DNA from: Nitrospirota bacterium
GTDB lineage: Bacteria > Nitrospirota > Thermodesulfovibrionia > SZUA-242
DNA length: 58,817 nucleotides
Assembly: GCA_016212095.1 (NCBI GenBank)
Contig: JACRHH010000008.1
Coordinates: forward strand, 1 to 58,817
Direction: 5' to 3'
Made by a program: the position numbers and the translations under genes. Below, in pieces: positions 26,523 through 52,128 of the stretch (positions within the stretch are counted from its first letter, which is position 1; each line of letters starts with the position of its first letter). A model generated the notes under the pieces. The model was not told the origin of the DNA. It ran no database searches and was given only the letters and a program-made list of their open reading frames with translations.

Positions 26523-26551
26523 TTGACAATTGGCCCATGCCTAAATATATT
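26523..26551 (+). promoter_or_regulatory. Near-consensus sigma70 promoter of the defence operon
   Basis: TTGACA (26523-26528) and TATATT (26546-26551) are spaced by exactly 17 bp. The predicted start point, near 26558, is about 40 bp upstream of the HTH gene. It is the strongest promoter-like sequence I see in the window and the only obvious one for the 18-kb operon. Confidence 0.7.
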
Positions 26552-26596
26552 AGAGGCTGTTTTAATTTTATTGGGCGACAATCAGGAGTTCAAGAA

Positions 26597-29700: not shown

Positions 29701-29709
29701 GGGCCAAAG

Positions 29710-29817
29710 ATGGACGCCAATGAGCATTCCTGACAAACCGACCAGCAGCAGGCAAAATACCGCCTGACCGCCAAAGGTCACGATATTTTTAAGCGATTGA
29801 AGAAGGAGAACCAATAA
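29710..29817 (+). pseudogene. Mini-ORF interrupted by an in-frame TGA
   Basis: In the same frame as the helicase, and just after its TAG, an ATG at 29710 opens a 35-codon frame with a TGA at codon 8 (29731-29733). It continues as QTDQQQAKYRLTAKGHDIF and KRLKKENQ to a TAA at 29815. The stop lies one base before the methyltransferase ATG. The second half reads like the end of a real protein, so this may be a decayed small gene or helicase tail. I do not recognise it. Confidence 0.35.
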
Positions 29818-29818
29818 T

Positions 29819-34410: not shown

Positions 34411-37400
34411 ACCCGCGGGGCCAAAGCAACACGCCTTCCGGAACAAGCTGGTCTTGAACCAGTGGCTGGTCAGCCTGTTCGGCATTGATCCGCTGATTGA
34501 GCATAAAGTGAATGGCACGGTGGTTCGCCCCTTTCACAAATTGGCCGAACCGATCCGTGATCCGCGTCTGGAGGGTTTGGACAAGGACAATCTGCATTTC
34601 TTCTACCATCATCTTGGCGATAGCCCGCTGTTCAGCTATGCCGATCCGACAGCGGAAATGCCGGGTTTTCGAATCAATCGGGATATGCTTCTGACCTACG
34701 AGCAGAGCATCGTTCGCCATACCCAAACCATCAACGAAAAGCGCCGCCGCCCGGTTGTCTGGAAATACTACCAGTGGCTGACCCTGCTTTTCGTCGAGAT
34801 ATACCTTGACCGCTTCTTCAGCAACCGCGACGGAATGCTTGCCGATCTCAATGACTTTGTTGAGCGCTTTAACCGCCACCGGGCTGATTACGCTGAGGTT
34901 CCGGCCTATAACGAGGACGATCTCAACAAGCTCTGCCTTCAGAACGCCACCGGCAGCGGCAAGACGCTGCTTATGCATGTCAACCTGCTGCAATACCGCC
35001 ACTATGCCGTTAAACACGGCAAAGACAAGGAACTGTCCCGTGTCATCCTGCTTACGCCCAACGAGCGGCTAAGCGAGCAGCACATTGCCGAGTTCAGGGA
35101 AAGCGACATCTCCGCCGACAGCTACCTGCAATCCCGTGGCGGCTTGTTCGCCGTTGCCAAAGGGCTTGAACGGGTGGATGTGCTGGAAATCACCAAGCTG
35201 GCCGACAAGGAAGGCCCCCAACAGATAGCCACCCGCAGCCTTGGCGATCAGAATCTCCTTCTGGTGGATGAAGGCCATCGCGGAATGAGCGGCAAGGAGG
35301 AAGGCGTCTGGTTCACCCGGCGATCCGATCTTTGCGCCAAGGGATTTACCTTCGAGTATTCGGCGACCTTCGAGCAGGCCGTAAAGGCGTCGGGCAACTC
35401 CGACTTCGAGAACAGTTACGCAAAAACCATTGTCTTCGATTATTCCTACCGATGGTTTTATGAGGACGGGTTCGGCAAGGATTATCAAATACTGAACCTT
35501 CCGGGGGCATTTAAAGAGACCCAATCCATCTACATGACCGCGTGCCTGCTCAAGTTTTACCAACAGCTTCGGATTTACGAAGAACAAACCAAAGATTTTG
35601 AGCCGTTCAACTTGGAGAAACCGCTGTGGGTATTTGTCGGCAGCACGGTTGTCAAAGAAAAAACTGACAAAAAAACCGGGAAAAAGACTTCAACGTTCGA
35701 TCCCGAATCATCTGCGGTATCCGATGTGGCGCTTATTATCCAGTTTGTTGCCGACTTTCTGGACAATCAGCAAGCGGCAGTTCGCCGGATTAACGAGATT
35801 CTGACCGGCAAAGGGCAGGATACGGGCCTGCTGGACAAGGACGGCAACGACATCTTTGCCGGGGCCTTTGCCTATCTTGCCCGATCAATGAATGCCGGTG
35901 AAACCATTGAGGCCCTCTATCGGGACATTCTTGCCCGGCTGTTCAACAACGCGGCGGGCGGCCATCTCTCACTGGATCGGGTCAAAGGGGAATCCGGCGA
36001 AGTGGCGCTGCGAGTGGGGACATCCGAAACGCCGTTTGGACTGATCAATGTGGGCGATGCCAAAAGCCTATGCGACCATGTGGCCGAAGTGGCTGCCCAG
36101 AACGGCACGCTCCTGACGGTGGACGACAGCGACTTTTCGGAAGCCATGTTTGCTTCTGTGAAGGATTCCACATCTCCGGTCAATCTGCTGATCGGCTCCA
36201 AGAAGTTTGTTGAAGGCTGGGATTGCTGGCGGGTCAGCACCTTGGGGTTGATGCACGTGGGACGCTCGGAAGGCTCCCAGATTATCCAGTTGTTCGGACG
36301 CGGCGTCCGTTTGAAGGGTTACGAGTGGAGCCTTAAACGAAGCGGTCATTCCCATGCCCCGGTTCGGCCTCCGACATTTATTGAAGAGTTGGAAACCCTG
36401 AACGTCTTTGGCATCGAAGCGGACTTTATGGAAAAATTCCGCGAGTTCCTGAAAGAAGAAGGACTTTCCGGCAACGAGCGGCGCAAGATCATTCATATTC
36501 CGCTTAACGTCACCTACGACTTCGGCAAGAAACTCCAGATTCTGCGGCCAAAGCACAAGGCCTCCGACGGTAAGGAATATGACTTCAAGAAGGATGCGCC
36601 AGTTCCTGCCGTTGGCGAGATACCGGATTATATGACACAAAACAGAGTGGTGGCCGACTGGTATCCACGGATTCAAGCCATACAGTCAAAGGGAACTGCC
36701 TTGGTTACCCAAAAGGACAGGGCAATTCTGCGTGAACACCATCTTGCCTTGCTGGATTACGACACGCTCTTTTTTGAGCTGGAGCGGTTCAGGCGTGAGC
36801 GAAGCTGGCACAACCTCAACGTATCCAAAGACGGTATCTACCGACTGCTCAAAGATCCAAGCTGGTACACGCTTTATCTGCCGGAAACCAGGCTGAATCC
36901 AACGAGCTTTGACGGCGTACTCCTTTTGCAGCAGGTGGCGTCTGAGCTTCTGAAGCGGTACTGCGATCACTACTACAACTATCGCAAACGCGAGTACATC
37001 GAGCCGCGTCTTGAACTGCGCGACCTGACTCCGGATGATGACAACATCCCGCGGGAGGAATGCTACCAGCTCATCGTTGATGGCGATGAAGAACAGGTCA
37101 TCCAGGGAATTCAGCAGATCAAGAAGGATCTGGAACAGAAGAAGGATGATCTGCTGACGGTTGGCGATCTGAACGCCTGCAATTTCGGCAAGCACCTGTT
37201 CCAGCCGCTCTTTCACGTCCGGCGCGGAGGGAAAATCACAATTCTTCCCGTGGCCATCAATGAAAGCGAGTACCAGTTTGTCACCGACCTGAAAACTTGG
37301 TCCAACGACCACAAGTCCACTCTAGAAGAAAACGGAATTGAACTTTTCCTGCTCAGGAACATGAGCCGTGGCAAAGGCGTGGGCTTCTTCGAGGCGGGCA

Positions 37401-37720
37401 ACTTCCACCCCGATTTCATTCTGTGGACGCTTATTGGCGGGAAACAGTACGTCACCTTCATCGAGCCGCACGGCCTTTTGCACGAAGGCCCCGCCAGCGA
37501 GAAGGTTCTGTTCCACAAACGGATCAAGGATGTCGAGCAACGGTTGAAAGACCAAACCGTAATCCTCAACAGTTTCATTCTTTCCTGGACTCGGCATCCG
37601 CAACTGAAATGGGACAACACACAGGATGAGCTTGAGGACATGCATGTTCTGTTCATGACCGATGATCGTGACAGATACATCGATAAGCTGTTTGCCCGGC
37701 TGAGGGGGATGGTGAAATGA
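34397..37720 (+). CDS. Type III restriction (Res)-like helicase with altered nuclease site
   Basis: The 1107-residue protein starts at the ATG following AAGGAGG. Walker A ATGSGKT is near residue 183, and the DEAH-like box reads VDEGHRGM near 290. Motif VI is IIQLFGRGVRLKG near 630. Near residue 1004 the C-terminal domain has HPDFILW and then TFIEPHG, the place of the PD-(D/E)XK nuclease. The final Lys is replaced by His, so nuclease activity is doubtful. In type III systems Res cuts DNA with Mod; here the YhcG-type nuclease lies between the two genes. Confidence 0.88.
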   Translation: MAKRKPAGPKQHAFRNKLVLNQWLVSLFGIDPLIEHKVNGTVVRPFHKLAEPIRDPRLEGLDKDNLHFFYHHLGDSPLFSYADPTAEMPGFRINRDMLLTYEQSIVRHTQTINEKRRRPVVWKYYQWLTLLFVEIYLDRFFSNRDGMLADLNDFVERFNRHRADYAEVPAYNEDDLNKLCLQNATGSGKTLLMHVNLLQYRHYAVKHGKDKELSRVILLTPNERLSEQHIAEFRESDISADSYLQSRGGLFAVAKGLERVDVLEITKLADKEGPQQIATRSLGDQNLLLVDEGHRGMSGKEEGVWFTRRSDLCAKGFTFEYSATFEQAVKASGNSDFENSYAKTIVFDYSYRWFYEDGFGKDYQILNLPGAFKETQSIYMTACLLKFYQQLRIYEEQTKDFEPFNLEKPLWVFVGSTVVKEKTDKKTGKKTSTFDPESSAVSDVALIIQFVADFLDNQQAAVRRINEILTGKGQDTGLLDKDGNDIFAGAFAYLARSMNAGETIEALYRDILARLFNNAAGGHLSLDRVKGESGEVALRVGTSETPFGLINVGDAKSLCDHVAEVAAQNGTLLTVDDSDFSEAMFASVKDSTSPVNLLIGSKKFVEGWDCWRVSTLGLMHVGRSEGSQIIQLFGRGVRLKGYEWSLKRSGHSHAPVRPPTFIEELETLNVFGIEADFMEKFREFLKEEGLSGNERRKIIHIPLNVTYDFGKKLQILRPKHKASDGKEYDFKKDAPVPAVGEIPDYMTQNRVVADWYPRIQAIQSKGTALVTQKDRAILREHHLALLDYDTLFFELERFRRERSWHNLNVSKDGIYRLLKDPSWYTLYLPETRLNPTSFDGVLLLQQVASELLKRYCDHYYNYRKREYIEPRLELRDLTPDDDNIPREECYQLIVDGDEEQVIQGIQQIKKDLEQKKDDLLTVGDLNACNFGKHLFQPLFHVRRGGKITILPVAINESEYQFVTDLKTWSNDHKSTLEENGIELFLLRNMSRGKGVGFFEAGNFHPDFILWTLIGGKQYVTFIEPHGLLHEGPASEKVLFHKRIKDVEQRLKDQTVILNSFILSWTRHPQLKWDNTQDELEDMHVLFMTDDRDRYIDKLFARLRGMVK

Positions 37721-39825
37721 ATATTGAAATTAAGAACTGCAACAACATTGATGCCGCCAAGATAACACTGGAAACAAATAAGCTGAACATCAAATTCGCT
37801 CCAAACGGTACAGGAAAAAGCACGATTGCAAGGGCTGTGCTGCTCGGCGCGAAAGGGGATCAAAACCTGCTGAACGAACTTATGCCGTTCAAACTCCGAA
37901 AAGAAAACCCAGATAGCTTGCAGCCGGAGATCACGGGGGCGGTAGCGCTGAAAAACATCATGTGCTTCAACGAGGAGTATGTCACTCAGTTTCTTTTTAA
38001 ACCGAATGAACTGCAGAGCAACAGTTTCGACATTTTTATCAGAACCGATACATACAAACAGAGAGAGCAGGAAATAGAGGAACTGGTCAGAAATATCAAG
38101 CAACTGTTTTCCGGGAATCAGGAATTGGAAGCGTTGATCAATACGCTCAAGGAAATGGGAAACGCCTTCAAATTGAGCAAAACGGGCTTATCCAAATCGT
38201 CCTCCGGCATGAAGGGGCTGTCTGCCGGGAATAAAATCAAGCATGTTCCTGCTGGGCTGGAATCCTACACACCGTTTATTCAGTGCCAAAACAGTGTGGG
38301 TTGGATTGAATGGCAAACCAAGGGCTGCGATTTTGCTGACCTGTCGGATAATTGCCCCTTCTGCACCTCACATGCAGCGGACAAAAAGGAGCAGATCAAA
38401 AAGGTAGGCCAAGAATACGACAAAATCAACATCAAGAACCTGATCGCCATCATTGGCGTCATCGAGAAATTAGGCGACTACTTTTCTGATGAAGCCAAAG
38501 GCAAGTTAACAACAATCACAACTTTGAAGGAAGGCCTTGGAAAAGAGCACGAGACATTTCTTGCCATGCTTAAGACTCAGATTGACAACTTCACTGAAAA
38601 GCTGGAAAAGCTCAGTACGCTTTCCGCGTTTCAGTTCAAGGACGGGGAAAAAGTCGCCGAAAAACTACCTGCATACAAACTGGATTTACAGTTTTTCTCG
38701 GAGCTCAAGTCAAACAGGATGCAGGACGCTATCGCTCCAATAAACGCTTCCATCGACAGTGTTATTGAGCAGGCCGGTCAACTGCAAGGGAAGATTAACC
38801 AGCAGCGAAGCGAGATGAAGAAAACCATTGAGCGTCACCAGAAGGACATCAATGAATTTCTCTCCTATGCTGGATACCGCTATGCGGTTGAGATTGCTGG
38901 TGATGCCGAACAGGCTCAGCTGAAACTTCGCCATATCGATCACGAGGAGCACCTGAGCGGTGGCAATCAGCATCTCAGCTTTGGGGAAAGAAACGCATTC
39001 GCAATCGTTCTTTTCATGTATGAGTGCCTCTCCAAAAAGCCGGATCTGATCATTCTGGATGATCCGATTTCCTCGTTCGATAAAAACAAAAAGTACGCCA
39101 TCCTCGAAATGCTCTTTCGGCGGGACACCGAAGCATGCCTGAAAAACAAAACCGTTCTGATGCTGACTCATGATGTAGAACCCATCATCGACACGATCAA
39201 GTCACTATCTCACAAGTTCGGCAATCAGACGTCGGCATCGTTTCTAAGATTGTCATCGGGCGAAATAGGCGAAAGCGGCATAGTCAAGGATGATATACAG
39301 ACCTTTTCCCAAATCTGTAAGAATGCCCTCGCCTCTGACAAGGACGATATTGTCAAACTAATCTACCTGAGGCGACATTTTGAGATTGCGGATAATAAGG
39401 GGGATGCCTATCAGGTGCTGTCAAACCTTTTACACAAAGGAAACGGCAAAGAGCGCGGGGTTGATACCCGTGAGCCGAAAGACGCAGAAGGCAATCTCCC
39501 AGAAATGGAGCAAGGCAAGTTCGATAATGGATACACTGAAATATCAAGCCATCTGAATGGCTTTTTGTACTCGCAACTTTTGGATCGAGTCGGTGATCTG
39601 AACGCTCTGAGGGAGCTTTACAACGCATCAGTGAATGGGTATGAAAAGCTTCAGATATTTCGGCTGCTTGGGCTTGACGTTGAAAACTCTGTGATCCAGA
39701 AGTTCATAAATGAAACCTACCATATTGAGAATGAGTTTATCTGCCAGCTTGACCCTGCAAAGTTTGACACAATTCCTGAATATGTCGTGTCTGAATGTGA
39801 TCGGATTCTGCAGGGGAATCAATGA
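37717..39825 (+). CDS. RloC/PrrC-like ABC ATPase with zinc hook, candidate anticodon nuclease
   Basis: The 702-residue protein has an ABC head: Walker A APNGTGKST near residue 31, signature SFGERNA near 420 and Walker B IILDDPISSFDKNKK near 445, the form seen in PrrC and RloC (AAA_13). Between them is a coiled coil with CPFC at about 213, like the RloC zinc hook. After the ATPase, Arg552-Glu556 (RRHFE) and His573 could be the Arg/Glu/His triad of anticodon nucleases, although the spacing differs from that of E. coli PrrC. Lower GC than its neighbours suggests separate acquisition. Start and stop overlap the flanking genes by 4 bp. Confidence 0.75.
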   Translation: MNIEIKNCNNIDAAKITLETNKLNIKFAPNGTGKSTIARAVLLGAKGDQNLLNELMPFKLRKENPDSLQPEITGAVALKNIMCFNEEYVTQFLFKPNELQSNSFDIFIRTDTYKQREQEIEELVRNIKQLFSGNQELEALINTLKEMGNAFKLSKTGLSKSSSGMKGLSAGNKIKHVPAGLESYTPFIQCQNSVGWIEWQTKGCDFADLSDNCPFCTSHAADKKEQIKKVGQEYDKINIKNLIAIIGVIEKLGDYFSDEAKGKLTTITTLKEGLGKEHETFLAMLKTQIDNFTEKLEKLSTLSAFQFKDGEKVAEKLPAYKLDLQFFSELKSNRMQDAIAPINASIDSVIEQAGQLQGKINQQRSEMKKTIERHQKDINEFLSYAGYRYAVEIAGDAEQAQLKLRHIDHEEHLSGGNQHLSFGERNAFAIVLFMYECLSKKPDLIILDDPISSFDKNKKYAILEMLFRRDTEACLKNKTVLMLTHDVEPIIDTIKSLSHKFGNQTSASFLRLSSGEIGESGIVKDDIQTFSQICKNALASDKDDIVKLIYLRRHFEIADNKGDAYQVLSNLLHKGNGKERGVDTREPKDAEGNLPEMEQGKFDNGYTEISSHLNGFLYSQLLDRVGDLNALRELYNASVNGYEKLQIFRLLGLDVENSVIQKFINETYHIENEFICQLDPAKFDTIPEYVVSECDRILQGNQ

Positions 39826-41051
39826 AACTCCTCCACACCTCCGACTGGCACATCGGGCGCACCCTCTACGGCAGGAAGCGTTACGAGGAGTTCGAAGCGT
39901 TCCTGGCCTGGCTGGCGGAGACGATTCAACGGAATGAAGTCGATGCCCTGCTGGTAGCCGGCGATGTTTTCGACACCAGCGCCCCAAGCAACCGTGCTCA
40001 GGAGCTTTATTACCGCTTCCTGTGCCGGGTGGCGGCCTCATCCTGCCGCCATGTTGTTGTGGTCGCGGGCAACCACGACTCCCCGTCGTTTCTCAACGCG
40101 CCCAAAGAGCTGCTCAGAGCGCTCGATGTTCATGTGATCGGCGCTGCATCCGAGAACCGGGACGACGAGGTTCTTGTTCTCGGCAATGAAAATGGAGCGC
40201 CGGAACTGATTGTATGCGCTGTTCCATACCTGCGAGACCGCGATATTCGCGTGGCGGAAGCCGGCGAGAGCATTGCGGACAAGGAACGAAAGCTTATTGA
40301 AGGCATACGCAGTCATTATGCCGATGTTGCGGCCTTGGCCGAACAGAAGCGCGAAGCACTCGGCACAGCGATCCCGATCGTCGTCATGGGACACCTTTTT
40401 GTTGCTGGCGGGCAAACCGTGGAAGGCGACGGCGTGCGGGAACTGTACGTCGGTTCGCTGGCGCATGTGACTGCCGGAATATTTCCGGAGGGTCTGGACT
40501 ATCTGGCGCTTGGCCACCTGCACGTTCCGCAGAAGGTGAACGGTTCCGATGTCATACGCTACAGCGGTTCTCCTCTGCCCATGGGTTTTGGTGAGGCGAA
40601 GCAGCAAAAAAGTGTCTGTCTGGTCGAATTCGCCAGCGCCACAGCAGCAGTTCAGCTTATCGATGTCCCTGTCTTTCAGAAGCTTGAGCGCATCAAGGGA
40701 GATTGGGAAGAGCTTTCGGCCAGGATTCTTGAGTTATCGGCCACCGGCTCCCAAGCATGGATCGAGGTCATATATGAAGGCGACAAAGTGATTGGCGATT
40801 TGCGGGAGCGTCTGGATGCTGCCGTTTCCGGATCGGGAATGGAAATTCTGAGCGTGAAAAACAACCGGATCATCGTCCGGGCGCTTAGGCTGATTCATGC
40901 CGGGGAAACACTGGACGACCTGAACGTCAACGATGTGTTCGAGCGCTGCCTCGCGGCTCATGATGTGCCTGAAGACCAGCGGACGGAACTGCTTTGCGCC
41001 TACTATGAGACAGTGGCGTCTCTCCACGAAGACGACAACCGGGCCGAATAG
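39822..41051 (+). CDS. sbcD: SbcD/Mre11-type exonuclease
   Basis: The 409-residue metallophosphoesterase carries all Mre11 motifs: HTSDWHIGR at the start, AGDVFDTSAPS, AGNHDSPS, MGHLFVAGG and LGHLHVPQ. It forms the nuclease half of the SbcCD complex with the next gene, cutting hairpins, protein-blocked ends and other abnormal DNA ends. In the island it is fused by translational overlap (ATGA) to the RloC-like gene, so it probably belongs to the defence operon rather than being the housekeeping copy. Confidence 0.95.
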   Translation: MKLLHTSDWHIGRTLYGRKRYEEFEAFLAWLAETIQRNEVDALLVAGDVFDTSAPSNRAQELYYRFLCRVAASSCRHVVVVAGNHDSPSFLNAPKELLRALDVHVIGAASENRDDEVLVLGNENGAPELIVCAVPYLRDRDIRVAEAGESIADKERKLIEGIRSHYADVAALAEQKREALGTAIPIVVMGHLFVAGGQTVEGDGVRELYVGSLAHVTAGIFPEGLDYLALGHLHVPQKVNGSDVIRYSGSPLPMGFGEAKQQKSVCLVEFASATAAVQLIDVPVFQKLERIKGDWEELSARILELSATGSQAWIEVIYEGDKVIGDLRERLDAAVSGSGMEILSVKNNRIIVRALRLIHAGETLDDLNVNDVFERCLAAHDVPEDQRTELLCAYYETVASLHEDDNRAE

Positions 41052-41062
41052 AGAGGCTGTTG

Positions 41063-44000
41063 ATGCGAATACTGCATGTGCGATTCAAGAATCTGAACTC
41101 ACTTGTAGGCGAATGGGAGATCGCCCTTACGCATCCAGCTTTTGCGTCCGACGGGATTTTTGCCATTACCGGCCCGACCGGCGCGGGGAAAACGACCATT
41201 CTCGACGCCATCTGCCTTGCCCTCTATGGACGCACGCCGCGTCTCAGCAAGGTCACCAAAAGCGGAAATGAAATCATGTCCCGCCGGACTGGCGAGTGCT
41301 ATGCCGAGGTGACCTTCGAAACGCAGGCTGGCCGCTACCGCTGCCATTGGAGCCAACGCCGCGCGAGAAAAAGACCGGATGGCGAGTTGCAGGCCCCAAA
41401 GCATGAGATTGCCAATGCCGATTCAGGGGAAATTTACGAGGCAAAGATCCGTGGCGTGGCCGATCAGATTGAATTCGCCACCGGCATGGATTTTGACCGG
41501 TTTACCCGCTCCATGCTTTTGGCCCAAGGCGGCTTTGCGGCATTTCTGCAGGCCGCGCCCGACGAACGGGCTCCGATTCTGGAGCAGATAACAGGAACTG
41601 GAATATACAGCGAAATATCCATCCGCGTTCATGAGCGCCGCTCGGATGAGCGCAAAAAGCTGGACGCGTTGCAGGCGGAACTGGCGGGGCTGCAACTTTT
41701 AACCCCAGAGGATGAACAGCAGCTCAACGCCGGTCTGGAACAAAAGACCCGGCAGGACATGGAACTCAATCAGCAGATCACCCGAAAGAATCTGGCGATT
41801 GCCTGGCTCGGTGGCATCGCCCGGCTTGAAGAAGAATTGAAGCAACTCGGTCTGCAAAAGGATGATTTGCAGACCCGGATCGATGCCTTTGCTCCCGATC
41901 AGGAAAAACTTCGGCTGGCCATCCATGCGCTTGAACTGGCGGGCGAATATTCTGCGGTGACTTCAATTCGGCGCGAACAAGAGACTGACCGGCGCAATCT
42001 TGGTGAGAGCCGGGAATCGTTACCCTCACACGTAGAGACCACAAAGCTGGCGGAAGAAGCCATGAAAATGGCCGTTGGGCAGCTTGAGACAAGCAAGGCC
42101 GATCAGCAAAAGACGCTTCCTGTCATCCGCATGGTTCGAGATCTGACGCTGAAGATCAACGAAAAAGAAGCGCCCGTCAAGGCGGCCACCGATTCCATCG
42201 CAGAACTCTCAGCGTCTCTTGATGCGCTCCGCGCCAGGCAGAATGAAGATTGCGCCGATCTGGATAGCAAGCGCAAAGCCCTGGAATATTTGCTGCCGCA
42301 GTTGGAGGCAGCGAAAGCTGACGAAGGCTTGGTGGAAAACCTCACGGGGATTCTCGGACGATGCGAGGCTTTGCGGAATCTCCACGGGCAGTTGGCTGGC
42401 AAACTTGAAGAGATCAATCAAGCCGATGGCCAGTTCAAGGAGGCTTCACAGTTCTGGCAGGCATATTCGGCAAGCCTGAACACGGAAAAACGTGGCAGGG
42501 ATGACATTCAAGGCCAACTGGCGGACAAGCAATTGGAATTCAAAGGAATTCTGGAAGGCAAAGAACTGACCGTGTGGCGTGACAGCCTGTCATCGTTGGC
42601 AACGCAAAAAGACCTTATGGTCAAAGCCGCCGAAGCAGCCCTATCCATTTCGAAGTCGAAACAGACAATTGATGCGCTCGGCAGCCGAAAAGCATCTCTC
42701 AGCGCCGATGATTCTGCACTGGCGGAGCGGCTCAAGCGCCAAACCGGGAAGCGGGCCTCGCTTGAAACGGAAATGGGTCTGCTGGAAATCCAGCTTGCTT
42801 TGCTCAACAAGATAGAGGAGCTTTCGGAAGCCCGCCATCAGCTTCAGGATGGCGAGCCATGTCCGCTGTGCGGCGCCAAAGAACATCCCTTTGCTGAAGG
42901 GAATATTCCGGCTCCAGATGAAACCAGCCAACGCCTCGGCATGGTCAGAGTCGAGTTGAAGGCTGCGACTGACGCAGTTTCCGATCTGAAGGTCAAATTG
43001 GCGCAGGTGGGCAAAGACCTTGAGCATGTCGCATCCGGACAGAAAGAACATGCCGCGATAATCGAGGAAGCACAGCGGCTGATCGTTCAGTTTTGCGAAA
43101 ATCTCCCATTGGATGCTTCCGATTCCGACCTTGACGTGAGACTGGAGGGGCTTCAGAGCGAGAATCGCCAGGCTCTGGATCACGCCGCCAAGGTTACGCG
43201 GGCCGCCGAAACGGTGGAGAAGGAATTAAACAGGCTGCGCGAGTCGCTGGAAAAGGCCACTGAATCGGTTGTAACGGCTGAACGTGAGACACAGGCTGCC
43301 GAACACAAGAAGGATTCAGCATGGCAACTGCTCGAACGACTCAAGAAGGAGGCGGAGGGAATCCAAAGCCAACAGGAAGCATCCCACAGACTTTTACAGG
43401 AGGTTGTTCAGGCGTTTGGGGTCGAAACCCTGTCCATCGGCAATTTGGATCAGGTTCAAGCTCAACTGACAGAACGGCGCAAACAGTGGATAGCGCGCCA
43501 AAAGGAAAAGGCGGAACTCGACCAGAAGATTGCAGCTCTTGCAATGCAGACACGCCACCAGGCTGAGCAGATTCAGAAATCCGAAAACGAGCTTAAGAAG
43601 CAACGGGATCAGCTTGATGAAATCCTTCGAGAACGAGAGGCATTGGGGCGTGAGCGGCAATACATTTTCGGAGACAAGAATCCTGATGACGAAGAGTTAC
43701 GCCTTTCCACCGCTATTAATTCCGCTGAACAAGAGCTGGAAGCAGCCCGTCAAAGACTGAACACCGCGAGCCAGGAACACAACCATCTAAAATCAAGGAT
43801 TGAGGAGCTGGAAAAATCTATCGCGGCGCGAGACATCCATCTGAAATCGACGGAAGAGGCTTTTCTGGCACAGCTCAAGGGATCGGGTTTTTCCGGTGAA
43901 GACAATTACAATGCCGCATGCTTGCCGGAAGACGAACGCAGAACACTGGCGCAACAATCGCAGAAGCTTGCCGATGAGAAAACCGGGCTTGCCTCAAAGG

Positions 44001-44746
44001 AACGCGACAGAATAGAGATGCTGGAAACCGAGCGTCAGAAGCAGATCACGGATGAGTCGCTGGATGATCTCAATGATACCCTTCCGATCTTGGTCTCCAG
44101 CCAGAAGGAACTCCAGCAGGAGATCGGCGGCATTCGCCAGAAGCTTAACGACAACGAGAATCTGAAGCAGAAACAACAGGAACGGGCGCAGGACATGAAT
44201 GCGCAAAAACGTGAATGCTCTCGATGGGATCTGCTGCATGAATTAATCGGCTCTGCCGACGGAAAGAAATACCGCAACTTTGCCCAAGGGTTGACCTTTG
44301 AAATGATGGTTTGTCACGCCAACCGGCAGCTACAGAAAATGACAGACCGCTACCTGCTGATCCGCGACGATGGCCAGCCGCTGGAACTCAATGTGATCGA
44401 CAACTATCAGGCTGGCGAGATTCGATCAACCAAGAATCTCTCAGGCGGCGAGAGCTTCATCGTCAGTCTCTCTCTGGCGCTTGGTCTTTCCCATATGGCC
44501 AGCAAAAATGTCCGGGTCGATTCCCTTTTTCTGGACGAAGGCTTCGGAACCTTGGACGAGGAGGCTCTAGACACGGCACTGGAAACACTGGCGGGCTTGC
44601 AGCAGGACGGCAAGCTGATTGGCGTGATTTCGCACGTTCCGGCACTGAAAGAGCGCATCAGCACCCAGATTCAGGTAACCACTCAAACGGGGGGGCGAAG
44701 CGTCATATCCGGCCCCGGCTGCGGAAGGTCTACGGCTGCAGCGTAG
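41063..44746 (+). CDS. sbcC: SbcC/Rad50-type ATPase
   Basis: The protein of about 1227 residues has Walker A GPTGAGKTTILDAI near residue 35 and two long coiled-coil arms. The zinc hook CPLCGAKEHP lies near residue 602. The ABC signature LSGGESFIVSLSLALG is near 1130, Walker B SLFLDEGFGTLDEE near 1155. It pairs with SbcD. A TTG three bases upstream is in frame, but the ATG at 41063 fits better. The C-terminus (GGRSVISGPGCGRS) looks complete. It is the last gene of the plus-strand operon. Confidence 0.95.
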   Translation: MRILHVRFKNLNSLVGEWEIALTHPAFASDGIFAITGPTGAGKTTILDAICLALYGRTPRLSKVTKSGNEIMSRRTGECYAEVTFETQAGRYRCHWSQRRARKRPDGELQAPKHEIANADSGEIYEAKIRGVADQIEFATGMDFDRFTRSMLLAQGGFAAFLQAAPDERAPILEQITGTGIYSEISIRVHERRSDERKKLDALQAELAGLQLLTPEDEQQLNAGLEQKTRQDMELNQQITRKNLAIAWLGGIARLEEELKQLGLQKDDLQTRIDAFAPDQEKLRLAIHALELAGEYSAVTSIRREQETDRRNLGESRESLPSHVETTKLAEEAMKMAVGQLETSKADQQKTLPVIRMVRDLTLKINEKEAPVKAATDSIAELSASLDALRARQNEDCADLDSKRKALEYLLPQLEAAKADEGLVENLTGILGRCEALRNLHGQLAGKLEEINQADGQFKEASQFWQAYSASLNTEKRGRDDIQGQLADKQLEFKGILEGKELTVWRDSLSSLATQKDLMVKAAEAALSISKSKQTIDALGSRKASLSADDSALAERLKRQTGKRASLETEMGLLEIQLALLNKIEELSEARHQLQDGEPCPLCGAKEHPFAEGNIPAPDETSQRLGMVRVELKAATDAVSDLKVKLAQVGKDLEHVASGQKEHAAIIEEAQRLIVQFCENLPLDASDSDLDVRLEGLQSENRQALDHAAKVTRAAETVEKELNRLRESLEKATESVVTAERETQAAEHKKDSAWQLLERLKKEAEGIQSQQEASHRLLQEVVQAFGVETLSIGNLDQVQAQLTERRKQWIARQKEKAELDQKIAALAMQTRHQAEQIQKSENELKKQRDQLDEILREREALGRERQYIFGDKNPDDEELRLSTAINSAEQELEAARQRLNTASQEHNHLKSRIEELEKSIAARDIHLKSTEEAFLAQLKGSGFSGEDNYNAACLPEDERRTLAQQSQKLADEKTGLASKERDRIEMLETERQKQITDESLDDLNDTLPILVSSQKELQQEIGGIRQKLNDNENLKQKQQERAQDMNAQKRECSRWDLLHELIGSADGKKYRNFAQGLTFEMMVCHANRQLQKMTDRYLLIRDDGQPLELNVIDNYQAGEIRSTKNLSGGESFIVSLSLALGLSHMASKNVRVDSLFLDEGFGTLDEEALDTALETLAGLQQDGKLIGVISHVPALKERISTQIQVTTQTGGRSVISGPGCGRSTAAA

Positions 44747-44834
44747 CCAAAAAGTTCTTTCGCGACGAAAGGTGTTTTGGCCATATTTGCCGCCGAGTCC
44801 GGCCAGTTTTCCTGCTCCAGCCGATTGGCAGTGG

Positions 44835-45061
44835 CTATCCGCAAATACAAGCAGCAGGCTTCACCGTCAGGTTTTTTGCCTCGAACCAGTCGTCGAACCT
44901 TCGCCACGGCTGTCTTTCTTCAGAAGTCGCCTGATGTATTTCATCAGCTTGCGGCGGCGTTCAATGGGCAGGCTGTCCACCATTGCTTGCATCCTAATGA
45001 GCAATTCTTCTTTCGGAATCTGCGCCAGTTCCATGCCAAGTTCGATATTATTTCTTTTCAT
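44835..45061 (-). pseudogene. Frameshifted paralogue of the 46267-46629 gene
   Basis: The frame from 45061 reads MKRNNIELGMELAQIPKEEL and reaches a stop at 44867 after 64 codons. Shifting frame by one base near 44910 restores RWRRFDDWFEA, which lines up without gaps with KRWFAMDEWFEA of the intact gene when counted from the shared YIR. The reading then ends at 44835. One base has therefore been lost (or a sequencing error occurred). It starts 100 bp from, and divergent to, the 45161 gene; the stretch 44747-44834 holds nothing else I can see. Confidence 0.6.
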
Positions 45062-45160
45062 GTATTGGTATTACCCCGGAGCATAATGCGTCATCGCAAA
45101 AACGATCGAAATAATCGGCACTATTTGATATGGTAGAAAAAATGTGCAGGGAGGTTTTTT

Positions 45161-45484
45161 ATGAACGACCGTATCGATACCCGCAGACTTGAACAGTTTG
45201 CTTTCAACTTCACAAAAACCCGACGAACCGAGCTTGTTGCGGGCAGGCTATACCGTTTTGCGCCTTGGAACAAAGTGACTGTTGCGCCAATACTCGGCAA
45301 CGCGGTTCCGGGCGTAACGGTTGGCAAACTGCTCGGCTTTCGGGAATTTGACCCGAACACGCCGATCCCTGAAGACGATGACGCATTTCCGGAAAATCCG
45401 GTTGCCGTATTGATGCCGGTGGGATCGGACGATGAAGAAGACGAAATCGAGGTGGATACGTTAGACTTGCTGCCTGTTAAATAA
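45161..45484 (+). CDS. Hypothetical protein with acidic C-terminus
   Basis: The 107-residue product has a good ribosome binding site (GGGAGG eight bases upstream). It begins MNDRIDTRRLEQFAFNFTKT, has a central VAGRLYRFAPWNKVTVAPIL section likely to be beta-rich, and ends in a strongly acidic DDEEDEIEVD tail. I do not recognise a family. It is transcribed divergently from the broken paralogue and overlaps the 3' end of the resolvase gene by 24 bp. An acidic small protein in an accessory island could be a DNA mimic or an inhibitor, but nothing here demonstrates that. Confidence 0.55.
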   Translation: MNDRIDTRRLEQFAFNFTKTRRTELVAGRLYRFAPWNKVTVAPILGNAVPGVTVGKLLGFREFDPNTPIPEDDDAFPENPVAVLMPVGSDDEEDEIEVDTLDLLPVK

Positions 45485-46051
45485 CGGATTTTGCGGATAA
45501 CCTTCCCGCTTCAATGCTGAATCCAAGGTAACGCGTGAGATGCCAAAGTGCTTAGCCACCTCTGTCTTCGTCATAAGCGGATCGAGCAGCATGGCGGCTG
45601 CCTTGCGCACATCAGCTTTCGTCAGCTTCGCCTTGCGCCCGCCTTTCCGGCCTCTGGCGCGAGCGGCTGCCAAGCCGGCAACTGTGCGCTCCCGGATCAG
45701 GTTGCGCTCAAACTCGGCCAAAGCGGCGAAAATGTGAAAAACTAGGCGGCCTCCTGCGCTTGTGGTGTCGATGCTCTCGGTCAGCGATTTAAAGCCGATG
45801 CCTTGCTGCTCAAGGCCATGAACAATCTCAACGAGGTTATTGAGGGATCGGCCCAAACGATCAAGCCGCCATACCACAAGGGTGTCTCCCTTGCGAAGCA
45901 CTTTCAGGCAGGTTTCCAATTCCGGTCGATCCTTGCCTTGGCCGGAAACCTTCTCATGAAATACCTGTTCGCATGAAGCCGCAGCCAAAGCGTCAAGCTG
46001 AAGTTCTGGCCGCTGATCCTGCGTCGAAACCCGTGCATAACCGATGTTCAT
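45461..46051 (-). CDS. Serine recombinase (resolvase/invertase)
   Basis: The 196-residue protein has the small serine recombinase layout: the catalytic Ser9 in YARVSTQDQ, WRLDRLGRS with the active-site arginines near residues 63-70, FERNLIRERT leading to the long E helix, and a C-terminal HTH (KTEVAKHFGISRVTLDSALK). Such enzymes resolve plasmid multimers or cointegrates at a res site next to the gene. Direct repeats just upstream (46067-46146) are candidates for it. The gene fits the plasmid-like half of the island. Confidence 0.92.
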   Translation of the reverse strand: MNIGYARVSTQDQRPELQLDALAAASCEQVFHEKVSGQGKDRPELETCLKVLRKGDTLVVWRLDRLGRSLNNLVEIVHGLEQQGIGFKSLTESIDTTSAGGRLVFHIFAALAEFERNLIRERTVAGLAAARARGRKGGRKAKLTKADVRKAAAMLLDPLMTKTEVAKHFGISRVTLDSALKREGYPQNPLFNRQQV

Positions 46052-46266: not shown

Positions 46267-46629
46267 TCAGCTTCTTTCCAGCTTTTCCTTTGCCCGGATA
46301 CCACGAATCCGAAGGCGTGTCTTGACCCGCCGCGCTATTTCGGCCAGCTTCTTCGTCATGGCCTTATCTATTGTGTGGTAGTGACAACATAACTTTGCGG
46401 CTGTTTTGGGCCTAGCTGTCGGATTCTGGCGGAAATATGCCTCAAACCATTCGTCCATAGCAAACCAGCGCTTATCAGATGCCGTCGCTTGCCGGATATA
46501 TCGCTGCAAGTCTTTCCGCCGATCTTCGGTCAGGTGATACACCATCTCCCGAATCATCACGCGCCACTCGTCACGCGGGATGCCCAATGCCAGGTTGCGG
46601 CCCTTGTCCAGCAGTTCGTTTCTTTCCAT
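46267..46629 (-). CDS. Small island protein, intact member of a duplicated family
   Basis: The 120-residue protein is basic and mostly helical: MERNELLDKGRNLALGIPRD, then MVYHLTEDRRKDLQRYIRQA, then RWFAMDEWFEAYFRQNP and a Lys/Arg-rich end. It is homologous to the broken gene at 44835-45061. I do not recognise the family. GGTAATACC precedes the start by five bases, the same leader as in the broken copy. The Arg/Lys-rich tail suggests nucleic acid binding. It may be part of the plasmid backbone control functions. Confidence 0.6.
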   Translation of the reverse strand: MERNELLDKGRNLALGIPRDEWRVMIREMVYHLTEDRRKDLQRYIRQATASDKRWFAMDEWFEAYFRQNPTARPKTAAKLCCHYHTIDKAMTKKLAEIARRVKTRLRIRGIRAKEKLERS

Positions 46630-47220: not shown

Positions 47221-48414
47221 TTATGCAAAGACACTTTCAATTTCAGCGGCGAATTCTCTGATTACCTTCAGGGATGCACGAATTGCCGCTACGTTATCTG
47301 TGGGGAATTCGTCTACGCCAACCTCCACGAGATTCACGTACATATTGTTCATCTCGTCAGCCAGTAAACCGAATTTCTTCACGAATCTCCATGGATTCAC
47401 CATGCTTAACAATTTCGCTTCCCGAACTCCCAAGACATCGCGGAGTTTGCTTTCCACTAATTCGGCATCCTTCCGCTGGCGTTCGGCAGCTTCCTTATCA
47501 TACCGAGCGGCATCAAGTTCTCCCTGAACTCGTTTGGTAGCCTGAGACATATCGCGCAATTGCCGCTCAAGCTCTTCGATCTCTGCGCGATATTCATCAC
47601 GTACTTTTTCGCGCTCTTCTTCGATCATGTCTTCATTGTCGGTAGAATTGGCATACTTCGCCTCAAGCTCCAATTCCTTTAGCCGAAGCTTTTCTTCAAC
47701 TTGCTTTTGAAACTTCGTTGTGATCGCCTTTAATTTTCCCTCGGTATCGGCGTATTTCCGTTCGATGCCAGTCAGCCGGTCAACTTCCCGGCCAAGCTCC
47801 ATCTCTTTTTTCCGCAATGCCTTGATCTCTTCGGTGGTTCTACGACCTTTCTCATCAGCATCTTCAGCTTCGACAAGAAAGGTCATTTCCCTCACCATCT
47901 CCGCCTGCTCCTCTTGGCTCAACTTCGCAATTGCGCGGATTGCATCGATATTTTTGCTGCGTTGCCAAAGCGTTTTCACAGCATTTCGAAGTTCGGGCCG
48001 TACATTTTCAAGAAAACCTGCAACGGCGGCTTGCATGGCGGACTCAAGCCTTTCGTTGCGGATAGCCATAAGTTTTATGCGTTCATCTTCTGGTATATGC
48101 CGCCGGTATAGTTCTACGTCGTAACTCAGCACCACGTCTTTTTTGGGATCGTCATCGTCGTCGTTGCTGTGAACTAAACACGGCACTTCGTCAATGCCAA
48201 GCTCTTGGGCTATGGCGTACCTAGTGCGGCCAGAAAGGATAACATAGCCGCTTCTGTCTTTACGCACATGAAGCGGATCAAGAATTCCGTTTTCGGAGAT
48301 GCTTTCTTTGAGTCCCTGCCGTTGCCACTCAGACATATCCGGCATTGGCTGATCATCGAATCTTAAGCTCTTTACCGGTAACGTCATTAAATCACCCACG
48401 CTGTTTTGACTCAT
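47221..48414 (-). CDS. ParB-like nuclease-fold protein with long coiled coil
   Basis: In 397 residues the N-terminal ParB/Srx domain has LPVKSLRFDDQPMPDM, LKESISENGILDPLHVR and GYVILSGRTRYAIAQEL. A helical middle part follows, and residues about 195-330 form an uninterrupted highly charged coiled coil (KKEMELGREVDRL to QLRDMSQATKRVQGEL). The C-terminal 60 residues are a separate helical domain. GGAGG lies six bases upstream of the ATG. No ParA ATPase is encoded. It may be a centromere-binding or gene-regulating protein of the element. It is 13 bp downstream of the double-HTH gene and probably co-transcribed. Confidence 0.8.
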   Translation of the reverse strand: MSQNSVGDLMTLPVKSLRFDDQPMPDMSEWQRQGLKESISENGILDPLHVRKDRSGYVILSGRTRYAIAQELGIDEVPCLVHSNDDDDDPKKDVVLSYDVELYRRHIPEDERIKLMAIRNERLESAMQAAVAGFLENVRPELRNAVKTLWQRSKNIDAIRAIAKLSQEEQAEMVREMTFLVEAEDADEKGRRTTEEIKALRKKEMELGREVDRLTGIERKYADTEGKLKAITTKFQKQVEEKLRLKELELEAKYANSTDNEDMIEEEREKVRDEYRAEIEELERQLRDMSQATKRVQGELDAARYDKEAAERQRKDAELVESKLRDVLGVREAKLLSMVNPWRFVKKFGLLADEMNNMYVNLVEVGVDEFPTDNVAAIRASLKVIREFAAEIESVFA

Positions 48415-48427
48415 GTTAACCTCCGAT

Positions 48428-48973
48428 TTATTCGGCCTTTAAACGCTCAAGTTCGTTGTTTATGCGCCTGAGATCTTCTTCTAGTTTTTGTTTTTGGGAT
48501 AAAAGGTGCATCCGCAATGATTGCCACATAATCCCACCATCTGTTCCATTAGACAGCTTGCCGTCACGTGCCATTCTGTTGACATATCGTGCAGAGCAGT
48601 TCAATATCTTCGCTGCCTTGGCGACGGACACGCCAGAGTGTTCCCAACGTTCCTGTTTTTTGAAAGAATGGGAACGCCATCCCAGAAAATCAATGTATTG
48701 ATCAGGATCCTTGAAAACATATATTGGAGAAGAAGGGAACTGCCGCTTTTTGTGCTTTGGTAACGATGAAGGCTTTTTGTGTCGCCAGACCTTGCGATAT
48801 ACGGTCATTTTGGCAACTCGCATGTATGCCGCAGCTTCTTCAAGGCTGACGTGATCGTGAATAAACAGGTACTCGTAATGTTTTGTCGAGTCGAGCCTTG
48901 CGGATTTTAGCGTATCCAGATCTACTTTGCCAGCCTTGATCAAGCGATTCATAATCTCGTTGTCTATGCTCAT
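48428..48973 (-). CDS. Protein with two HTH motifs and C-terminal coiled coil
   Basis: The 181-residue protein appears to hold two excisionase/MerR-like helix-turn-helix motifs: VSLEEAAAYMRVAKMTVYRK near residue 42 and VSVAKAAKILNCSARYVNRM near 115, the second followed by ARDGKLSN. The last 30 residues form a coiled coil (KLEEDLRRINNELERLK). It is probably a DNA-binding regulator of the plasmid-like module, perhaps autoregulating through the inverted repeats upstream. GAGGTAATAC precedes the start. No name can be assigned. Confidence 0.65.
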   Translation of the reverse strand: MSIDNEIMNRLIKAGKVDLDTLKSARLDSTKHYEYLFIHDHVSLEEAAAYMRVAKMTVYRKVWRHKKPSSLPKHKKRQFPSSPIYVFKDPDQYIDFLGWRSHSFKKQERWEHSGVSVAKAAKILNCSARYVNRMARDGKLSNGTDGGIMWQSLRMHLLSQKQKLEEDLRRINNELERLKAE

Positions 48974-49550
48974 ACTCTTGTATTACCTCGCAGCCTGTTA
49001 GTCATGTCGTGCCTAGATTCCGAATCCATCAACAGATTTGTTATATAGACGGAATCGCCGTTCCTCATTATATAACATAGCCGGTTAGATATGCGGAACT
49101 TTATTCTCGATTAATAACAGTAGAGTTATTATTCTAGGAATTCTGTTCCGAGTTTGACAACATGAATGTAATTTTTACAAGTTGGTTAAATTTCGTTACA
49201 TTGGAAAATCAACCAAAATCTCCAGCATCCCACTATGTGACAGTTTTGGGACATCATGTCCGGAATTTGTTGGATTACCATCAATTCCAATACTCCCGAT
49301 CCTCAAGCTCGCGCGGTTTCCGGTCATCGCTTGGCGATACCAATGCGTTTCCCTTCCCTTGCCACGATCCCTGCATTTCTTTTTCATTGCATCTTCATCT
49401 TAGGAACACGTCGCAAATGGCATCTCACTTGCATGGCTCTTTACCCGGCACATCTTTCTGGTATTCTTTTCTCTTCATATTTCCATTCCATATTATTTCA
49501 ATACTTTCCCCCTGCATTTCTGCTTTCTAATCATATAGTTACCCGCTCTA
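48974..49550. promoter_or_regulatory. Palindrome-rich control region upstream of the replication module
   Basis: This stretch has no credible gene. It holds inverted repeats GTTATATA/TATATAAC (49040-49076, with GGAA/TTCC inside), TAATAAC/GTTATTA (49112-49131), AATGTAA/TTACATT (49165-49202) and the perfect palindrome GGACATCATGTCC (49249-49261). From about 49340 to 49550 the plus strand is markedly pyrimidine-rich. Together with the iterons it looks like a plasmid origin and partition/operator region. Confidence 0.5.
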
Positions 49551-49612
49551 TCTGCGACCTTTATACAGGCATCTGCGACCTTTATACAGGTGAAGTGCGA
49601 CTTTTATACAGA
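49551..49612 (+). repeat. Iteron array (three 19-bp repeats)
   Basis: Three direct repeats, TCTGCGACCTTTATACAGG at 49551 and 49572 (identical) and AGTGCGACTTTTATACAGA at 49594, have starts 21 and 22 bp apart, about two helical turns. A fourth degenerate copy (15 of 19 matching) lies at 49757-49775, before the rep gene. This is the classic arrangement for Rep_3 initiators. Confidence 0.8.
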
Positions 49613-49756
49613 AATGATCGTAAAAACCGATGCAACGGATCGGTGGATAGACCGCGACTATCAGTGCTCTGCAATAAGCTCCGGCAATGCCGTTTTTGCA
49701 GCCAATTGCCTGTAAATCGAGTCCATTCCGTCTCACATGCGATAAAAAGAGCCAAA

Positions 49757-49775
49757 TCTGCGACCGCCATGCAGG
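49757..49775 (+). repeat. Degenerate iteron near the rep start
   Basis: TCTGCGACCGCCATGCAGG matches the iteron at both ends and differs in the middle. It sits 47 bp upstream of the rep ATG, where an initiator could repress its own gene. Confidence 0.5.
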
Positions 49776-49822
49776 CAGCGGGGCTAATACTCCATTGAGA
49801 AATATCGCAAAGGAGATCCCCG

Positions 49823-50512
49823 ATGGGAAAAGCAGAGGTTCTGCCGATTTCTCTTAAACAGCATAATTATTTCATAGAGGCGAAGTATCGGCTTACGCTT
49901 GTCGAGAAAAAGTTTCTGGTTGGTGTCGCATTTTTCTGGCAGCGACAATGCGAACAGGCGGGTCAATACTCCAACGAGGTTACATTAAGCGCATCAGAAC
50001 TGTGCAGGCTCACCGGATTGTCACTGGAAAGCACACGGCTGTTTCAGAGCGCTATCAAAAAGCTGATGTCCAAAGTGATTACGATGAAACACATCGGCAC
50101 CAAAGCGAGCTCTTTATTCCATTTCTTCTATCTGGGGCATTACAACAATGGCCTTCTTCAACTGTATTTTGTGGATGAAATGAGGCCGTTTTTTTTCGAT
50201 CTGAGCCGTGAATTCACTATTTACGGACTGGACTGCATTAAGCAACTGCACAGCGAATACTCAATCCGCATCTTCGAACTCCTGAAACAGTACCAGAACA
50301 CAAAAAGTCAGCGGCGCGTGTTCCGTGTAGAGGAATTAATGCAACTCCTTGGAATTGAGCAGGGGAAATATCATCGATACAGCGATTTCAAGCGAAAAGT
50401 GCTCAATGTGGCTTATAGGGAGTGCAACGCAAAAACCGATATTCGGTTTTCTATTGAGGAACGACGACAAGGGAAGCGAGTTACGGAAATTGTGTTCAAC
50501 ATTGAGACTTGA
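49823..50512 (+). CDS. Rep_3-family plasmid replication initiator
   Basis: The 229-residue protein has two winged-helix domains typical of RepB/RepE-like initiators: FIEAKYRLTLVEKKFLVG, LSASELCRLTGLSLESTRLF and FDLSREFTIYGLDCIKQL, with SEYSIRIFELLKQYQN and the second-domain start FRVEELMQLLGI, FKRKVLNVAYREC. AGGAG lies ten bases upstream of the ATG. The iteron array lies 211 bp upstream. In the integrated state its activity would have to be kept low, perhaps through the degenerate iteron. Confidence 0.88.
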   Translation: MGKAEVLPISLKQHNYFIEAKYRLTLVEKKFLVGVAFFWQRQCEQAGQYSNEVTLSASELCRLTGLSLESTRLFQSAIKKLMSKVITMKHIGTKASSLFHFFYLGHYNNGLLQLYFVDEMRPFFFDLSREFTIYGLDCIKQLHSEYSIRIFELLKQYQNTKSQRRVFRVEELMQLLGIEQGKYHRYSDFKRKVLNVAYRECNAKTDIRFSIEERRQGKRVTEIVFNIET

Positions 50513-50599: not shown

Positions 50600-50791
50600 A
50601 CGTGACTTGTCGCGAGATCATGGCAATGCTCGCCAACATTGATGCTATGATACAAAATAATCGGCGACAGGCAGGCTTCTTTTTGTTGTTTCCGCTTTGG
50701 TTGGAAGTAATACCTATGCGTGAACACGCAACTTTCAATCGAGACAGGAACATTATTATTGGTGTCGCTCTTAGAAGAGGAAAATAAGGGC

Positions 50792-51982
50792 ATGAAGGGA
50801 CGGGTACGCACAAAACAAACACAGTGCAACTGTGGACAAAAATTCGTCGAAATTCCCGGAACCGGTTACTTATGCCTTGCATGTCGTTGTGTCCCAACAA
50901 GGTTTTTCGTCGATTTCTTCTGGTCTGGACAACGTATCAAATTATACAGCGACCAGAGAGGATTGCCACTCGACACCTATTTGCGAGCCAAAAATCAGCT
51001 TGCGGTTGTGCAAAACGAAATCGCCAACCATATCTTCGATCCAAGCAGATACATTAAATCGGATATTAAGCAGTATCTTTTCGAAACCGTGGCACAGAAA
51101 TGGTTTGAAGGCAAAGAGCGCGATGTGGAAAAAGGAAAGATGTCGCCCGGAGGCTTGCACCCAATCAAAAGCCGATTTGCAAATTACATAATTCCGTATT
51201 TTACAGGCAGAGATATTCGGGATATTCGCACAATGCACCTGAAGGAATTTTATCGTCAACTTCCAGATCGTCTTTCCTCGCGAACTCATAAGCACATCCT
51301 TGAAGACGTGCGGAATTTCCTGAACGACTGCTATCGAGATGAAATCATTTCCAAATTGCCGCTGATTCCTGAGGTGACTGTTGAGGAACCGCCTATCAAA
51401 TGGTGTCGCCGTGATGTGCAAGACAAAATACTTGCAGCAATTCCAGATCAGGACAGAGCGATATTTTTCTTTCTGACGCGGCAAGGCGTTCGGCCAAGCG
51501 AAGGATGCCTTGTTCAATGGGGCGATATAGACTTTGAAAATCAGGTATTAAACATCAACCGCACTTATTCGCGGGATCAAATAATGGAACGCCCTAAAAG
51601 TAAAAAATCGCGGCCACGACTGATTCATCCGGAAATAATAGCGATGCTCAATAACGTTCCGAAAGGATTTCCGAAATCCTATATATTCTTCAATCCACGC
51701 ACCCAAAAACCATACCGACTAAGAACGATCGACATTATTTGGAAACAAGCGACTGAGAAAACAAATATTGACATTACCCTTTACCAAGCTACTCGCCACT
51801 CTGTTGCTTCAATGGCGGCATCGGCTGGCATTTCGCTGAAAATTATCCAGAAGTTTCTTGGTCATACCAGTATGAATAGCACCAACAGATATGCCGACCT
51901 GGATGTCAGTGCTCAACAGATTATGTTTAGCACTGACTGTCCGCAACCTGTCCGTAGCGTCCCATGCAATAAGAAAAGATGA
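50792..51982 (+). CDS. int: Tyrosine integrase of the island
   Basis: From the ATG at 50792 the protein is 396 residues; an in-frame ATG at 50720 would add 24. The N-terminus has a zinc-ribbon-like pattern (QCNCGQKF, then CLACRC). The catalytic domain shows Arg in GVRPSEG, QATRHSVAS in place of the usual HxxR box (Gln for His), LGHTSM and the Tyr in NRYADLD. It ends 28 bp before attR, pointing to it, the usual place for a tRNA-targeting integrase. It would catalyse recombination within the 30-bp tRNA-Ser repeat. Confidence 0.92.
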   Translation: MKGRVRTKQTQCNCGQKFVEIPGTGYLCLACRCVPTRFFVDFFWSGQRIKLYSDQRGLPLDTYLRAKNQLAVVQNEIANHIFDPSRYIKSDIKQYLFETVAQKWFEGKERDVEKGKMSPGGLHPIKSRFANYIIPYFTGRDIRDIRTMHLKEFYRQLPDRLSSRTHKHILEDVRNFLNDCYRDEIISKLPLIPEVTVEEPPIKWCRRDVQDKILAAIPDQDRAIFFFLTRQGVRPSEGCLVQWGDIDFENQVLNINRTYSRDQIMERPKSKKSRPRLIHPEIIAMLNNVPKGFPKSYIFFNPRTQKPYRLRTIDIIWKQATEKTNIDITLYQATRHSVASMAASAGISLKIIQKFLGHTSMNSTNRYADLDVSAQQIMFSTDCPQPVRSVPCNKKR

Positions 51983-51988
51983 CGCATT

Positions 51989-52002
51989 ATCAATGAGTTA
52001 CG
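51989..52002 (-). repeat. Island-terminal inverted repeat, right arm
   Basis: ATCAATGAGTTACG is the exact reverse complement of 26220-26233. It lies between the integrase stop and attR. Confidence 0.6.
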
Positions 52003-52010
52003 CTTCATGG

Positions 52011-52040
52011 CCGTGGGTTCAAATCCCACCCTCTCCGCCA
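52011..52040 (+). repeat. attR (copy of tRNA-Ser 3' end)
   Basis: This 30-bp block is identical to the 3' end of tRNA-Ser at 26190-26219, ending CTCTCCGCCA. No tRNA 5' part precedes it. It marks the chromosomal junction on the right. Confidence 0.92.
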
Positions 52041-52128
52041 TTTAAATGGCGGCGGTAAAGCGTAATTCATGAAGATCAACGCGCTTGCGCCAGCCATGAC
52101 CTGACGATCCAGCCGCACAGCCAGCCGC

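Follow-up and report, generated by a model that had tools for sequence, protein, structure and literature searches.

Integrative elements with a Rep_3/iteron replicon are known already. SGI1 combines a Rep_3 initiator, four iterons, an HTH_17 protein encoded beside rep and a resolvase (PMC7433901, PMC7826253). Its replication is detected only when excision is possible and requires rep and the iteron-containing oriV; producing Rep in cells whose chromosome contains an oriV is apparently harmful, and replication of SGI1 destabilises its helper plasmid (PMC7433901, PMC7826253). The island targets trmE, its iterons (GGGGGHRATTATGCGY) belong to an oriV downstream of rep, and it carries mobilization genes (PMC7826253); rep itself is expressed from an S004-rep operon that activators of the helper plasmid switch on. 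By our comparison, SGI1 is the strongest precedent for replication after excision.

A second close system, pPDL2 of Sphingobium fuliginis, is described as an integrative plasmid or IME with a Rep_3 initiator, upstream iterons and an A+T-rich region, and its attP, at the 3′ end of int, matches the 3′ end of a seryl-tRNA gene (PMC3516476). It was isolated as a plasmid and bears a partition protein, a mobilization module and opd cargo. More broadly, IMEs carry initiators of the Rep_3, replisome organizer/DnaC and RepA/RepC types, and integrated BcenGI2, Tn6104 and GIsul2 have theta-type initiators, whose presumed role is to keep the excised form in the cell (reviewed in PMC5704250).

The window, the whole 58,817-nucleotide stretch of Nitrospirota DNA analysed here, contains an element of 25,821 bp (~25.8 kb) whose two boundaries are 30-bp direct copies of the tRNA-Ser(CGA) 3′ end. 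We assign a probability of about 0.7 to the reading that this is an integrative element whose iteron replicon is conditional, inactive in the chromosome and active on the circle that Int excises. Like SGI1, it is an integrated island with a Rep_3 initiator, a small iteron array, an HTH_17 gene beside rep and a resolvase, but its putative oriV is upstream of rep, the HTH gene is divergent, the integration site is tRNA-Ser rather than trmE and the repeats are TCTGCGACCTTTATACAGG, unrelated to GGGGGHRATTATGCGY, which places it outside the SGI1 family. Its anatomy is nearly that of pPDL2, which is a free plasmid, whereas the window element is known only in the integrated state, has no mobilization genes that we could find and carries defence cargo. 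The reviewed IMEs have a relaxase beside the initiator (PMC5704250), and none was found here. The first-pass annotation had proposed that the island, integrated at a tRNA, contains a Rep_3/iteron replicon, which the repeats, the Rep domains and the 30-bp att duplication bear out. Its remark that integrated elements with their own replicon are less common holds in a relative sense only, SGI1, BcenGI2 and pPDL2 being of the same kind. What is new is the host group and the occurrence of Int relatives beside different replication genes. In the cited literature, Rep_3/iteron integrative elements come mainly from Proteobacteria, and the present one extends them to a mostly uncultured Nitrospirota group. 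Two genomes of its class, G133 and G134, share their Rep entries with Candidatus Magnetominusculus xianensis (L122) and Nitrospirae bacterium nDJH6bin1 (L120), which identifies the phylum as Nitrospirota; the class is Thermodesulfovibrionia in GTDB.

The ends of the element are defined by the following features:

26190–26219, plus strand: attL core, the 3′ end of tRNA-Ser(CGA) (tRNA at 26130–26219); exact 30-bp repeat with 52011–52040
26220–26233, plus strand: CGTAACTCATTGAT, right arm of a 14-bp perfect inverted repeat, from comparison of the att ends
26272–26288, plus strand: paired GTCCCC motifs with 11-bp spacing, candidate integrase arm sites common to the att regions of Int relatives
50720–51982, plus strand: tyrosine integrase of at most 420 aa (the start may lie further downstream), with N-terminal Cys pairs; PF00589, E=1e-20
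51989–52002, plus strand: ATCAATGAGTTACG, left arm of the 14-bp inverted repeat, 8 bp before the attR core
52011–52040, plus strand: attR core, 28 bp past the int stop codon; exact 30-bp repeat with the attL core

An integrase gene together with an att core duplicated in a tRNA 3′ end is the signature of an integrative element. Joining the two ends would give an attP in which the core is flanked by the 14-bp perfect inverted repeat, with the predicted junction GAGTTACGCTTCATGG-core-CGTAACTCATTG. GTCCCC pairs with the same 11-bp spacing are found in the att region of one Int relative (L035, about 4913–4933 and 15712–15731) and at the int end of another (L036, 5485–5504), and this recurrence ties the left end of the element to the integrase at its right end. 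The adjacency of tadA and tRNA-Ser(CGA) is conserved in relatives. In two genomes of the same family (G001 and G002), the tRNA gene follows tadA without this island, but the genes downstream are unlike the right flank in the window, so that no empty site exact to the base was seen; the gene after attR (HDOD) has no match in two same-family genomes. Just outside attR, at 52041–52070, the element end at 51993–52013 reappears in imperfect inverted form (CGGCGGTAAAGCGTAATTCAT), which a previous insertion at this tRNA could have left behind.

The iterons, rep and int cluster at one end of the element, and the putative origin occupies its largest non-coding stretch (48974–49822, 849 bp). Two ORFs of 180 and 122 aa that cross or precede the iterons were rejected as non-coding, having flat codon-position GC and no Pfam match above cut-off. 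The origin region and initiator gene comprise:

49400–49549, no strand assigned: A+T-rich, pyrimidine-skewed stretch adjoining the iterons, candidate DNA-unwinding region by composition
49551–49569, plus strand: iteron 1 (TCTGCGACCTTTATACAGG), from repeat comparison and weight matrix
49572–49590, plus strand: iteron 2, identical to iteron 1, same evidence
49594–49612, plus strand: iteron 3 (AGTGCGACTTTTATACAGA), diverged, same evidence
49757–49775, plus strand: diverged iteron-like copy, candidate operator half-site (15/19 identity, fourth-best matrix match in the window)
49823–50512, plus strand: Rep_3 (RepE-like) replication initiator, 229 aa, from Pfam, phmmer and a structure model

The three 19-bp repeats with a 21–22-bp period that had been noted ahead of the initiator gene are real. 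Positions 49550–49569 and 49571–49590 agree at 20/20 positions, 49593–49612 is 80% identical, and the spacings are 21 and 22 bp. Among all periods of 15–40 bp, the longest exact repeat measures 20 nt, whereas 300 shuffled versions of the region averaged 7.5 and never exceeded 11. The three copies are the top three hits of their own weight matrix across the 58.8-kb window; together, the shuffles and the matrix ranking rule out chance repeats. The array thus consists of three direct repeats at about two helical turns, with the rep start 210 bp downstream, as in an iteron-type origin. The iteron-like copy at 49757–49775 ends 47 bp before rep. A+T content reaches 60–66% in the 100-bp windows starting at 49400 and 49450 and is 47–59% in those starting at 49500–49950. 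In the 1.95 kb scanned for DnaA boxes, there is no exact match, and five sites with one mismatch compare with an estimated ~2.6 by chance. No sigma-70 consensus promoter lies between the iterons and rep, and Rfam has no match at 44–53 kb. The tandem iteron motif recurs in none of the 230 genomes of the class that were scanned and does not occur in IMG/VR viral contigs.

The arrangement of repeats and rep is conserved among homologues. We compared the upstream DNA at 16 Rep homologue loci, ten in class genomes and six on plasmids, and repeats of ~21-bp period fall within ~420 bp upstream of rep in 14 of them by either of two repeat scans. Strict chains of at least three copies occur at 11 of the 16 loci and in 4 of 360 control segments. 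The repeat sequences vary from one Rep to another, as expected of cognate iterons. With three clear copies, the window element is at the low end, most homologues having 4–11.

Rep matches PF01051 (E=2.7e-25) and PF21205 (E=8e-19) over nearly the full length of both, so the two winged-helix domains (WH1 and WH2) of Rep_3 initiators (RepE/RepA/pi) are present. The gene is preceded by a Shine-Dalgarno-like AAGGAG and has coding-type GC by codon position. Among solved structures, a phmmer search places complexes of plasmid F RepE with its iterons nearest (E=2e-15 to 6e-15). An AlphaFold model built on an alignment of 31 homologues has a mean pLDDT of 84.8 and predicts the same fold: its best PDB matches are RepE54-iteron complexes at TM ~0.73, including 8aan, which contains an iteron and DUE ssDNA. 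The likeness to mini-F RepE/ori2 thus lies in the modelled initiator fold (TM 0.73) and in direct repeats at about two helical turns, whereas Rep is only ~23% identical to RepE in the fold alignment, and the window element has three iterons and no parABS-type partition set. In a tree of 123 Reps, the window protein stands by itself on a long branch, apart from the other class Reps, and has no close relatives. Used alone as a query against viral contigs and genome contigs, Rep found no relatives; its YSIRIFELL misfits the pattern Y[SA]IR[ILM]YE[LI]L used for the alignment scan, so the nearest kin may be missed. Descent from resident plasmids of the class is unsupported, as the other class Reps, nearly all of family f12, form a group apart.

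Upstream of the putative origin, on the opposite strand, lie the resolvase and ParB-like genes, which had been counted with the integrase as a plasmid backbone, and an HTH gene:

45461–46051, minus strand: serine resolvase/invertase, 196 aa (PF00239, E=7e-46; phrog_125)
47221–48414, minus strand: ParB_N-domain protein, 397 aa (PF02195, E=1e-11), with a relative found in an ICE
48428–48973, minus strand: HTH_17, excisionase-like protein, 181 aa, divergent from rep; candidate regulator or RDF
49018–49098, no strand assigned: imperfect palindrome upstream of the HTH gene, candidate operator (fold z = -2.35)

The resolvase, the integrase and a ParB_N gene are indeed present, but the ParB-like protein does not stand up as part of a parABS system. 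In Pfam, it matches ParB_N alone and lacks the ParB HTH, the element encodes no ParA, and the pair that it forms with the HTH protein is shared with an ICE. G016, a relative from the same class, has the pair too, in an ICE located at tRNA-Leu that also encodes TraC, TrbI and TraE homologues (L168, G016:C57:45000-64900). The HTH and ParB-like proteins there are 27% and 30% identical to those of the window, but the ICE has F-type T4SS genes and another integrase, and no Rep_3 in the 19.9 kb examined. In G125, a homologue of the HTH protein adjoins a protein that matches only a later part of the ParB-like one and has a P22_AR_N domain at its N-terminus; that locus is beside an integrase and tRNA-Leu. 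PLSDB holds no relatives of either the ParB-like or the HTH protein. From the lone ParB_N domain, the missing ParA, the PLSDB result and the recurrence in G016 and G125, the pair more probably serves integrative elements as a regulatory or stability module, rather than acting in plasmid partition. The resolvase gene is flanked by two small ORFs with no significant family match (46267–46629, 120 aa, and 45161–45484, 107 aa).

These features suggest how the element may operate. Int, aided by an RDF that is perhaps the HTH_17 protein, would recombine the two 30-bp att cores into a circle and a restored tRNA locus. On the circle, Rep monomers would bind the three iterons, open the adjoining A+T-rich stretch and recruit host replication proteins, with copy number limited by the diverged iteron-like site before rep and by handcuffing. 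The predicted outcome is a compact theta-type replicon at the int end of the element. Because extra origin firing in the chromosome would be harmful, rep must be largely silent in the integrated state, and the most likely switch would be the divergent HTH protein acting with its palindrome. The region is a compact (~1.5 kb) replicon candidate with exact att sites; it illustrates how an excised defence island could be kept in the cell, and a working mini-replicon could also be a cloning origin for Nitrospirota.

Many relatives of the integrase occur in the class, with 35–48% identity at best. Att repeats are detectable in three of them, all at tRNA 3′ ends (tRNA-Asp, -Asn and -Ala), in elements of 5.7–13.8 kb. 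The neighbouring replication genes differ: the integrase adjoins phage O (rep_O) and DnaB-like genes in L034, a DnaB gene in L036, an AAA_25 ATPase gene in L035, an IstB/DnaC-like loader gene in L040 and a primase-like gene, below its Pfam cut-off, in L031. No Rep_3 is found beside Int among the closest relatives within the stretches examined, so the Rep_3–Int pairing is seen once. The pattern would fit an integrase habitually paired with a replication module of any kind. A wider proposal has a low probability: a single tRNA-targeting integrase lineage in this Nitrospirota class may have interchangeable replication modules (phage O/DnaB, DnaC-like, AAA helicase, primase, and here Rep_3 with iterons), and the ICE-derived HTH and ParB-like pair may restrict replication to the time after excision. 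If so, the element would be a mosaic in which control genes from an ICE, the origin of a plasmid and an integrase of satellite type together spread a large restriction/SbcCD-type defence cargo. Separately, one Int relative adjoins a terminase gene.

Several observations count against the conditional replicon: no extrachromosomal copy was seen (the genome has a single rep match, in this contig), there are three clear iterons and no convincing DnaA box or promoter, Rep is a lone branch, and its pairing with Int is seen once. All but the last of these would suit a plasmid long captured in the chromosome, whose Rep or origin no longer fires. Such a relic is nevertheless unlikely, given that Rep is unbroken, keeps the RepE fold in the model and every residue invariant across a 17-sequence alignment, and that two iterons are 100% identical and the ribosome-binding site, int and both att sites are intact.

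We give less credence still to a mainly plasmid life, with integration as one of two states. The layout of pPDL2 is the same, with Rep_3, iterons and an attP directly behind int that matches tRNA-Ser, and a resolvase is present, as on plasmids. However, the window element is found only integrated and has no parA, its Int gives only weak partial matches among PLSDB plasmids, its ParB-like and HTH proteins none, and Int relatives lie in chromosomal tRNA-bounded elements. The conditional-replicon reading is the better account.

The remainder of the element is cargo:

26507–45484, plus strand: mad1-like HTH, DrmD-like SNF2 helicase, type III Mod, YhcG/PDDEXK nuclease and type III Res, continuing with an AAA_13 protein (PDC-S06), SbcD- and SbcC-like proteins and orf107

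The defence-like genes at 26507–44746 form one same-strand run, with the YhcG/DUF1016 nuclease between Mod and Res, and by PADLOC they fit no single named system. Iteron/Rep sets cause plasmid incompatibility, SGI1 replication destabilises its helper and the rest of the cargo is defence-like, so the integrated Rep and iterons might themselves exclude incoming plasmids with the same iterons by titration or handcuffing; this is very improbable, since searches of IMG/VR contigs and 230 class genomes turned up none bearing these iterons, and a simple replicon role requires no new assumption. No relaxase was found among the island genes, and PF03432, the relaxase family scanned for across the whole genome, has no match. 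The island likewise has no T4SS gene, VirB4/TraC-type PF19044 and VirD4 PF02534 being absent from the whole genome, and its genes include no capsid, terminase or tail gene. On the families scanned, the element is therefore not classed as an IME, which carries a relaxase and oriT, as an ICE, which carries a T4SS, or as a phage-plasmid or prophage. Under the conditional-replicon reading, the replicon could secure maintenance after excision and would not itself transfer DNA; the first-pass suggestion that such a replicon accounts for the spread of the defence genes is thus unsupported in that form.

A locus in Candidatus Cryosericum septentrionale (L146, 1026–10750) has a large serine recombinase gene that runs at its 3′ end into tRNA-Ala, together with a methyltransferase-like gene and a Rep_3 gene preceded by two tandem repeats at 21 bp. 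Its Rep is nearest to the window Rep in the tree, but through a long-branch join. The locus may be an integrated replicon that parallels this one in a different phylum.
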